Source of the DNA: Alistipes sp.
GTDB taxonomy: Bacteria > Bacteroidota > Bacteroidia > Bacteroidales > Rikenellaceae
Length of the DNA: 36,139 nt
Assembly: GCA_017624955.1 (NCBI GenBank)
Contig: JAGAMA010000008.1
Location: forward strand, 1-36,139
Direction: 5' to 3'
Shown: positions 11,415-33,065 of the stretch, piece by piece
Numbering within the stretch: position 1 is the first letter of the stretch
Layout of the letters: each line of letters begins with the position of its first letter
Position numbers and translations under genes: made by a program
Notes under the pieces: model-generated
Databases searched by the model: none
The model's input: the letters and a program-made list of their open reading frames with translations, nothing else
Told to the model about the DNA's origin: nothing

Positions 11415-12548
11415 ATGAAAAAGATTCTGTTGCTGGCCGTGCTCCTGGGTTGGAACTTTACGAACCTCATGGCCGAGGAGCTTCCTTCGCGCGAGGAGCG
11501 CCTGGAGCTGACGAAGCGTGTCAATGAGTACCTGATGACCAAGAAGCACGCCGACCCGACGGCCGTGATGCCCTACTACTCGCGTAAGAAGGTCTACGAG
11601 TCGAACATCTGGACCCGTGCCGTCTATTACGAGGGACTCATGGCGCTCTACGCCATCCACCCCGATAACCGCTACTACGACTATGCGGTGCGTTGGGCCG
11701 ATTTCCACAAGTGGGGTATGCGCCGTGACGACACGACGACCCGCAATGCAGACAACTACTGCTGCTCGCAGACCTACATCGACCTCTATCGCCTCGAGCC
11801 GCACCCCGAGCGCATCCGCAAGACGATTGCCCTGTGCGATATGTTAGTCAATACGCCCCAGGTGGAGGATTGGACCTGGATCGATGCGATCCAGATGGGT
11901 ATGCCCGTGCTGGTGAAGCTCGGCAGGCTGAAGGGCGACGATCGCTACTACGAGAAGGCCTACGAGATGTACGCCTGGAGCCGCAATACGCTGGCCGGTG
12001 GCTTGTACAACGAGAAGGAGGGCCTTTGGTGGCGCGACAAGGATTTCGTGCCTCCCTACAAGGAGCCCAATGGCGAGGATTGCTATTGGTCGCGCGGTAA
12101 CGGCTGGGTGGTGGCTGCGCTGGTGCGTGTGCTGCAGGAGCTGCCTAAGGATGCTGCGCACCGCGACCTCTACATCCGGGATTTGAAGGCGATGCTCAAG
12201 GCTGCCAAGGCGTGCCAGCGTAAGGATGGCTATTGGAATGTGAGCATGCACGACGAGTCGAACTACGGCGGCAAGGAGGTAACCGGTACGTCGCTCTTTA
12301 TTTATGGTATGGCTTGGGCGATTAACCAGGGCCTGGTTGATCGTGCGGAGTATCTGCCCGCCGTTACGAAGGCGTGGAACGCCATGGCCACCGAGGCGGT
12401 GCATGAAAACGGCTTCCTTGGCTATGTACAGGGCACGGGCAAGGAGCCGAAGGATGGTCAGCCCGTAACCTACGACTCGAAGCCCGACTTCGAGGATTAT
12501 GGCGTGGGTTGTTTCCTGCTGGCAGGCTCGGAGGTCTATAAATTGTAA
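11415..12548 (+). CDS. GH105 unsaturated rhamnogalacturonyl/uronyl hydrolase
   Basis: A 377-residue member of the GH88/GH105 alpha/alpha-barrel group that removes the 4,5-unsaturated uronic acid left by polysaccharide lyases. It has a classical signal peptide (MKKILLLAVLLGWNF, cut near residue 20) and no lipobox, so probably periplasmic. Two acidic residues match the family's catalytic pair: Asp113 in NADNYCCSQ and Asp157 in WTWIDAIQMG. WWRDKDFVPPY and YWSRGNGWV are conserved active-site loops. It follows the GH106 gene closely and probably uses its promoter. Together they suggest stepwise breakdown of rhamnogalacturonan oligosaccharides. A long hairpin element and a terminator follow its stop codon. 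Confidence 0.9.
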   Translation: MKKILLLAVLLGWNFTNLMAEELPSREERLELTKRVNEYLMTKKHADPTAVMPYYSRKKVYESNIWTRAVYYEGLMALYAIHPDNRYYDYAVRWADFHKWGMRRDDTTTRNADNYCCSQTYIDLYRLEPHPERIRKTIALCDMLVNTPQVEDWTWIDAIQMGMPVLVKLGRLKGDDRYYEKAYEMYAWSRNTLAGGLYNEKEGLWWRDKDFVPPYKEPNGEDCYWSRGNGWVVAALVRVLQELPKDAAHRDLYIRDLKAMLKAAKACQRKDGYWNVSMHDESNYGGKEVTGTSLFIYGMAWAINQGLVDRAEYLPAVTKAWNAMATEAVHENGFLGYVQGTGKEPKDGQPVTYDSKPDFEDYGVGCFLLAGSEVYKL

Positions 12549-12557
12549 AGCGGGAAT

Positions 12558-12668
12558 CCGTCTAACAAGGCTCTTTCGGCATCTGCCTTGCCCGAAAAAT
12601 GCTCATTTACGCTCGGTAAACTGCGCTTTTTCGGGCCGCGAGCAGCTTCAAAATAGCTCTTGTTATAC
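12558..12668 (+). repeat. Long hairpin element A (related to element B at 32911-33020)
   Basis: An imperfect palindrome of about 110 bases starts 9 bases after the GH105 stop. Stems, from outside in: AACAAG (12564-12569) with CTTGTT (12659-12664); GCCCGAAAAA (12590-12599) with TTTTTCGGGC (12627-12636); TTTAC (12606-12610) with GTAAA (12616-12620). It shares the opening word CCGTCT, the closing ATACGA, the CTCA-N2-TAC apex pattern and the following GAAAGAAAG with element B. It could be a dispersed REP/MITE-like element or a conserved 3'-UTR RNA structure. Confidence 0.75.
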
Positions 12669-12687
12669 GAATTCCAGAAAGAAAGCA

Positions 12688-12718
12688 AAGAGGGTGTCCC
12701 GCAGTGGAACACCCTCTT
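12688..12718. terminator. Bidirectional terminator between GH105 and GH28
   Basis: AAGAGGGTGT (12688-12697) pairs perfectly with ACACCCTCTT (12709-12718); CC and GG can extend the stem. It serves the convergent GH105 (plus) and GH28 (minus) genes. T-runs are short, so efficiency is uncertain. Confidence 0.75.
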
Positions 12719-12739
12719 CCTTTGTTATTGGAGAGCGGA

Positions 12740-31868: not shown

Positions 31869-32903
<1,035 letters not shown>

Positions 32904-32910
32904 TCAAAAG

Positions 32911-33020
32911 CCGTCTGACGGGTGATTTCTGCGTTACGCTTGCGCTCGAAATCCTCACATACGTCGAGTATGCTCCGGTTTCGAGCACTGCGCAAGCCTT
33001 GAAATCCCCTCGTCATACAA
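32911..33020 (+). repeat. Long hairpin element B (related to element A at 12558-12668)
   Basis: An imperfect palindrome begins 7 bases after the gapA stop. Nested pairs: GACGGG (32917-32922) with CTCGTC (33009-33014); GATTTC (32924-32929) with GAAATC (33001-33006); GCTTGCGC (32938-32945) with GCGCAAGC (32990-32997); TCGAAA (32946-32951) with TTTCGA (32979-32984); CATAC (32958-32962) with GTATG (32968-32972). AAAAG (32906-32910) and CTTTT (33021-33025) can extend it. Relative to element A, the outer and apical stems show paired substitutions that preserve pairing. Confidence 0.75.
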
Positions 33021-33032
33021 CTTTTGAAAAAG

Positions 33033-33065
33033 AAAGAGTTCTCGGAAACGGGAACTCTTTTTTTG
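33033..33065 (+). terminator. Intrinsic terminator after gapA
   Basis: AAAGAGTTCTCG (33033-33044) pairs with CGGGAACTCTTT (33049-33060) with one G-U pair, closes on a GAAA tetraloop, and is followed by a T-run. Confidence 0.9.

Follow-up and report, generated by a model that had tools for sequence, protein, structure and literature searches.

The window analysed here, a stretch of 36,139 nucleotides from an Alistipes genome, contains two long hairpin elements, A and B, each lying directly 3' of the stop codon of a protein-coding gene. Element A follows a glycoside hydrolase gene (11415-12548, plus strand; Pfam PF07470 Glyco_hydro_88) whose TAA stop codon occupies 12546..12548, and element B follows gapA (31890-32903, plus strand; Pfam PF00044/PF02800), which ends with TAG at 32901..32903. 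As delimited by folding, the full quasi-palindrome of A extends on the plus strand from 12553 to 12675 with the tips GGAAT...ATTCC, and that of B from 32904 to 33027 with the tips TCAAAAG...CTTTTGA, leaving a gap between stop codon and element of 4 nt for A and 0 nt for B. A covariance model of the family matched both on the minus strand (A at 12556-12669, E 3e-28; B at 32909-33019, E 2e-31), A and B being among its training sequences. Folding z-scores were -5.7 for the A stretch and -6.7 for the B stretch, with 0 of 200 shuffles as good in either case, both z-scored stretches also taking in the hairpin further downstream. A preliminary description of this DNA had reported two long hairpins directly behind stop codons; both hairpins are real and begin 0-4 nt after the stop codon, but the palindromes exceed the extent that was given for them.

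The apex core of A lies at 12602..12622 on the plus strand (CTCATTTAC-GCTCG-GTAAACT) and that of B at 32954..32974 on the same strand (CTCACATAC-GTCGA-GTATGCT). The apex pattern CTCA-NNTAC-N5-GTANN-CT thereby occurs twice in the window, against 0.05 occurrences expected. As had been described, A and B have the motifs CCGTCT and ATACRA in common, and the apical stem is TTTAC/GTAAA in A and CATAC/GTATG in B. The paired differences in the outer stem also agree with the earlier account, except that the fifth pair, A-T in A, is a G.T in B. The downstream motif GAAARAAAG, attributed to both elements, is exact in A only, since B has GAAAAAGAAAG in its place.

An intrinsic terminator had been proposed behind each element. 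For B this appears likely by eye, from a hairpin at 33029..33064 (plus strand) that ends in a T-run, even though a simple terminator scan did not score it. The terminator-like hairpin 3' of A, which folding places at 12679..12726, was scored by the same scan on the minus strand only (12719-12687), with nothing scored on the plus strand. No sigma-70-like promoters were found around A or B, with a consensus that is not known to cover Bacteroidota promoters.

A repeat family and its position at gene 3' ends

The existence of further copies could be established with a covariance model built from 19 copies. At a threshold of E<=0.001 this model gave 41 matches in the present genome, a number that should include the 19 training copies, and 0 to 97 copies per genome in 17 genomes of the same genus, with zero matches in G396, G401, G413 and G417. 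The family that A and B had been suspected to represent therefore exists, and its copies show both pairing conservation and positional bias. A simple pattern search with CTCANNTACNNNNNGTANNCT found 20 exact and 4 one-mismatch places in this genome, the reversed-pattern control giving 0 exact and 4 one-mismatch places; one of the one-mismatch places (L027) seemingly lies inside a gene. Other genomes contain the further apex types TGTAC/GTACA, CGTAC/GTACG and TATAC/GTATA, every one of them complementary, and further copies have apex loops of 4 or 6 nt instead of 5. Three copies of this genome (L026, L028, L029) form a sub-type with GTCA for CTCA and different outer motifs. Tandem copies about 120-130 bp apart were seen at L031, L106, L138 and L126, at L275 and L276 in G398, and in more pairs of G398.

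The position of the copies relative to genes was examined with a codon-usage gene caller, trained on this genome also when applied to G409. In this genome a strong bias to gene 3' ends is evident, 24 of the 29 copies examined being in sense and immediately 3' of a stop codon. For the exact-core copies the fraction is 16/20; here the distance from stop codon to core is 44-78 nt, which places the stop near the foot of the hairpin. Two of the other four have a sense gene further off and two an antisense neighbour. One of the four one-mismatch places (L029) lies in sense behind a stop, the other three do not, and among nine further copies eight start -1 to 19 nt from a sense stop codon. By eye, the palindrome at L007 and L021 takes in the gene's stop codon, and at L021 its last codon as well. 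The host genes are diverse and include those for a fucosidase, fucose isomerases, RecQ, RNase Y, GapA and GMP synthase. In G409, 6 of 11 copies are in sense at a stop codon, 4 have no upstream gene call and 1 is antisense and far. For 128 cores at other loci the nearest upstream gene was sense in 92 cases and antisense in 21, with 15 lacking a call, and the 31 copies in G315, a relative with a recent burst, show no sense bias (6 sense, 13 antisense, 12 without a call).

Long quasi-palindromes centred on the same apex occur in Bacteroidota and, judged by record titles, also in Proteobacteria, Desulfobacterales, Myxococcales, Sulfurimonas, Clostridia and others. A scan of genome_contigs gave at least 112 stretches with the core. 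Among the matches listed, those outside Rikenellaceae included Gammaproteobacteria (including Legionella and a Coxiellaceae MAG), Nitrosomonas, Rudaea, Mariprofundus, Desulfobacterales, Myxococcales, Sulfurimonas, Thermodesulfobacteriaceae and Clostridia MAGs. Among the listed cores with full flanks, 103/115 have at least 30 apex-spanning pairs on one strand (Bacteroidales 53/60, other groups 50/55). An Amycolatopsis match, with 15 pairs, looks like chance. Carriage by phages was set aside: in viral_contigs (14 matches, L142-L155) 2 of 13 full-flank cores reach at least 30 spanning pairs, and these two may be members of the family.

A stricter 14-base core was present in 19 of the 22 genomes reached through the loci, the richest with 48 (a gammaproteobacterial MAG), 33, 26, 21, 13, 12 and 49 (Tidjanibacter) copies, and the reversed pattern matched once in these 22 genomes altogether. 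A looser core was found in 75 of 395 genomes of a phylum sample, where single matches are at about the level of the reversed control; within genera of this sample the distribution is patchy, with 10-28 copies in some species and none in others. A plasmid search with two elements as queries returned only partial matches, in Halomonas, Phyllobacterium and Legionella. Rfam gave no match above the gathering threshold in the window and, at E<=1 for six loci, one match that was below the gathering score and away from the element of that locus. Among the papers listed in a full-text literature search that covered few subscription papers, none was recognisable from its listing as describing the hairpin family.

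Kept pairing and the strand that folds

Read on the minus strand, the copies share a conserved head of approximately 5'-CGNAG-NNTAC-N4..6-GTANN-TGAG, which in many copies is flanked further out by AAGGC and TAACGC. When 38 copies from a wide range of groups were aligned in their minus-strand reading and scored over 15 pairs, the covariation score was 0.467 against a shuffled mean of 0.144 (0/500), and slid pairings reached at most 0.190; because the structure was derived from the same 38-copy alignment, one of these controls leans towards it. In this alignment 111 cells were changed on both sides, although a count of doubly changed pairs is not by itself unusual (10 versus 8.8; 109/500). With more copies included, the compensatory stem changes first noticed between A and B extend to covariation beyond the controls. 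Outside the head the arms are copy-specific. For 20 copies of this genome, the left arm's outer 14 nt scored 15.8 against their own right arm and 5.1 against the right arms of other copies, and the corresponding values elsewhere were 13.6 versus 4.7 (54 copies) and 12.6 versus 3.0 (51 copies), with p<=0.0005 in all three sets.

The two strands of the hairpin are not equivalent. The minus strand was the more stable one in 23/23 copies of this genome with RNA as well as with DNA parameters, in 48/58 and 52/59 other copies with RNA parameters and 56/58 and 54/59 with DNA parameters, and in 19 of 20 further copies; for G315 the corresponding fractions were 4/9 (RNA) and 9/9 (DNA). Mismatches point in the same direction. 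Isolated plus-strand mismatches were counted with the apex left out, 79 Bacteroidales copies and 58 copies from other groups being considered. In Bacteroidales there were 103 A.C and 153 C.T against 28 G.U and 27 A.G mismatches (256 versus 55), and in the other groups 83 A.C and 103 C.T against 38 G.U and 25 A.G (186 versus 63). A lean to A.C/C.T was seen per copy in 67/71 Bacteroidales and 43/47 copies from other phyla. Some mismatches are inherited at fixed positions, and the dominant class per position agrees with the overall lean (26 versus 5, and 28 versus 7). On the minus strand A.C and C.T become G.T and G.A. Unexpectedly, it is the template (minus) strand, not the mRNA strand, that is kept foldable, as these statistics show for copies that are in part related and therefore not independent. 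A mutational bias of the minus strand could mimic part of this signal. The similar numbers of C.C and G.G mismatches (26 and 22; 13 and 18), which reveal no strand asymmetry, count against it too, since a stability rule would predict one, and so does G315, where the asymmetry is missing with RNA parameters.

These data bear directly on the reading of the hairpins as 3'-UTR RNA elements, one of the two readings offered in the preliminary description. A plus-strand hairpin in the mRNA would protect its 3' end, block exonucleases or modulate translation, as has been proposed for E. coli REPs near stop codons. The sense position directly behind stop codons fits this idea, as do the good folding of the plus strands of A and B and the REP precedents (PMC12306157, PMC3733652). 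Selection on an mRNA hairpin should, however, tolerate G.U on the plus strand, and the opposite is seen: the plus-strand mismatches lean to A.C/C.T in nearly all copies, and the greater folding stability is on the minus strand. In addition, among 21 readable same-genus relatives the gapA 3' flank carries a hairpin of this family in 4, another long hairpin in 3 and neither in 14, as judged by eye. The strand asymmetry, with the complement of the mRNA kept folding in Bacteroidales as well as in other phyla, favours a single-stranded DNA hairpin and weakens the 3'-UTR reading to the point where we consider it unlikely. The frequencies on the minus strand itself, where G.A is at least as common as G.T, are also a better fit to DNA than to RNA. 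The wider caution is that covariation at gene 3' ends need not imply a functional mRNA structure.

Mobility, turnover and the search for an enzyme

Several observations indicate that copies move or are exchanged. Most elements of G315 have the form of a 142-bp MITE-like unit with the terminal inverted repeats GGGCACCTCTAAAAA. Twenty stretches were taken for a comparison of their flanks, and in the 16 with both ends found the 4-bp flanks were, by eye, identical in 10, agreed at three of four positions in 3 and disagreed in 3. One locus of this genome (L200, G315:C33) holds a 99-bp element with the G315 ends and no apex core, which shows that a copy can do without the core. The G315 end repeat TTTTTAGAGGTGCCC was noticed just behind the element of Nitrosomonas eutropha (L091, near 253-420), and similar ends, GGGCACTTCGAAAAACC, flank the Rudaea element (L139); on this evidence, distant hosts may share a transposon that carries the hairpin.

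In G395, near-identical units that comprise the hairpin and a following hairpin with a T-run occur at different places. In three of eight such copies an open frame of 209-218 codons terminates 9-27 nt ahead of the copy, and five do not lie behind a long open frame, one of these being cut by a contig end. The earlier suggestion of a palindrome that targets 3' ends accordingly agrees with the overall positional bias but not with the missing sense bias of G315 or with only 3/8 recent G395 copies behind a long frame, and active targeting of gene 3' ends is not proven. Three Tidjanibacter copies have the stretch from stop codon to T-run in common, with compensated pair differences in their tips and in the hairpin that follows. 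At L086, L092 and L121 of this organism, the T-run hairpin reads GAGAGCAACATCGAGTTGCTCTC or GAGAGTGGTATCGAACCACTCTC with both sides changed, as if one arm had been copied from the other.

Turnover is visible at orthologous sites. G418 and G414, whose DNA is 95 and 94% identical over the best match, have a different hairpin behind gapA, and remnants of B lie behind the gapA hairpin in G414 and G402. At five orthologous sites the arms were scored over 92 positions with the core left out. They are divergent at three sites (32-60 of 92) between flanks that are 61-97% identical: L021/L249 has 57/92 in the arms, 197/204 in the upstream and 191/198 in the downstream flank; L022/L262 has 32/92, 178/204 and 120/198; and L013/L256 has 60/92, 174/204 and 167/198. 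At the other two sites the arms are conserved (L006/L248, 87/92; L014/L254, 88/92, including a compensated pair), which means that not all copies turn over. A second kind of long hairpin behind gapA, noted in other species of the genus at L221 (1-2632), L224 and, by eye, L212, has the core TGTAC-N5 or N6-GTACTATCC and may be a sister family that occupies the same site.

No recurrent neighbour emerged when the ORFs of 112 loci were clustered by BLAST; the largest single-linkage cluster comprised 8 loci, with some members overlapping the element. Y1 transposases (PF01797) were found in 0/17 same-genus genomes and in 12/15 other genomes, both with and without elements. RVT_1 was absent from 10 of the 17, including the element-rich G000, G395, G398, G399, G414 and G418, and present in the element-rich G408 and G409 as well as in the element-free G396, G401 and G417. 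Retro-mobilisation of an mRNA 3' end, which the T-run at the end of the units had suggested, was set aside because most element-rich genomes are without RVT_1, though G408 and G409 have it. The integron integrase model TIGR02249 scored above its cut-off in 0/17 same-genus genomes and in 4 of the 15 others. Of these 15 genomes, which belong to another family, some that have the element and some that lack it carry Y1, RVT_1 or integrase genes. A search by eye for an autonomous partner bearing the G315 ends, among the matches listed, showed end pairs at element length and none at the distance of an insertion sequence.

Taken together, the family shows a conserved head with copy-specific arms, a patchy multi-copy spread, a position behind stop codons, covariation, and turnover at orthologous sites. 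Our preferred reading, which we put at a probability of about one half, takes A and B as copies of a mobile long-hairpin repeat, non-autonomous and REP- or MITE-like, with a very wide distribution, whose active form would be the minus strand folded into a hairpin as single-stranded DNA; the mismatch asymmetry is what points to single-stranded DNA. Of the two readings in the preliminary description, the mobile palindrome is thus the one that gains. A putative trans-acting DNA-cutting enzyme would recognise the structure of the head, much as integron integrases act on attC bottom strands and RAYT proteins on REPs. Insertions behind stop codons would survive either because they are least harmful there or because hairpins at such places serve as targets, and exchange between copies together with arm-to-arm copying would keep the arms complementary. 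The hairpins may also act on the mRNA 3' end, but such a role would be secondary. If this reading is right, the absence of the family from Rfam is explained by a sequence that changes while the fold is kept.

It is quite unlikely, in our estimation, that the copies are ordinary MITEs of DDE transposons, with a hairpin centre common by descent, a mutational strand asymmetry, arms kept complementary by hairpin-templated replication correction, and no dedicated enzyme. The mostly 142-bp G315 elements with their defined ends, 4-bp duplications and lack of sense bias are what this explanation would produce, and the compensated differences between near-identical Tidjanibacter copies suggest arm-to-arm copying. 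It has difficulty, on the other hand, with terminal repeats that differ within one genome around a centre kept across phyla, the reverse of what a TIR-binding transposase needs, and with G395 units that run through a hairpin into a T-run and have no terminal repeat at that end. Less probable still is a minus-strand antisense small RNA, by which each copy would encode a hairpin RNA running towards the gene 3' end: the greater stability of the minus strand with RNA parameters is in its favour, but G.A is as common as G.U on that strand, the terminator-like site behind A (and, by eye, a similar one at several other copies) faces the minus strand, where it would end an antisense transcript ahead of the hairpin, and the promoter search around A and B, with a consensus not known to cover Bacteroidota, found no sigma-70-like site.

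A more far-reaching version of the mobile-repeat reading is offered tentatively, as something we ourselves rather doubt. The hairpins may belong to an unrecognised, phylum-crossing class of single-stranded DNA hairpin elements, in which a head recognised on the template strand would be swapped into hairpins already present behind genes, with the arms rebuilt by fold-back copying, giving the same head with locus-specific arms. If true, gene 3' ends would continually be re-equipped with new hairpin (and terminator) units. The mobile-repeat reading in general would mean that one structured repeat family reshapes the DNA directly behind genes across many phyla. The strand result predicts a template-strand DNA hairpin together with a matching enzyme, and this could offer a route to a new recombination or transposition machine.

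Comparison with known hairpin elements

An attC site sits directly behind a stop codon in sense orientation and has its conserved part in the outer boxes, the R boxes being RYYYAAC and GTTRRRY, and RAYT transposases recognise REPs by the structure of the head. In the present family the bottom strand likewise folds and the site lies in sense behind a stop codon. The bound form of attC is the folded bottom strand with extrahelical bases (PMC3053210). At the R-box positions element A has GTCTAAC..GTTATAC, but other copies differ and the tips are copy-specific; attC conserves the outer boxes and this family the apex. Moreover, attC sites form cassette arrays whereas the family consists of dispersed singles or short tandems, and the 17 same-genus genomes have no integron integrase above the cut-off.

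Among MITEs, the G315 copies are alike in having terminal inverted repeats and 4-bp duplications, and this genome is unlike them in that its terminal repeats are copy-specific. The Coxiella QMITE2 is a long hairpin of 150-190 bp that lies mainly in 3' untranslated regions and holds a REP; it has direct repeats of 7-11 nt, and relatives are reported only in a few alpha- and gammaproteobacteria (PMC5896051). The Coxiella REP as printed in PMC2817692 (GTAGGTTGGGCTGAGCTTGCGAAGCCCAAC) is without the apex of our family.

REPs of the GTAG and CGTC super-families are palindromic and dispersed, lie mostly near gene 3' ends and carry compensated stem changes (Di Nocera 2013, PMC3733652; Nunvar 2010, PMC2817692). 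An action on translation has been described for REPs near stop codons (PMC12306157). The minus strand of our family mostly has GNAG directly 5' of the apical stem, which recalls the GTAG head of REPs. REPs, however, are palindromes of 20-40 bp with an unpaired GTAG at the end, and the family measures about 110-150 bp, its long arms enclosing a 5-bp apical stem, and has mostly GGAG or GCAG embedded in the stem. Those REP sequences of Table 1 in PMC2817692 that were compared are by eye without the apex of the family, and the 17 same-genus genomes lack a Y1 (HUH) RAYT gene. The hairpin family resembles attC sites and REPs in some respects, departs from both in defining features, and is assigned to neither.
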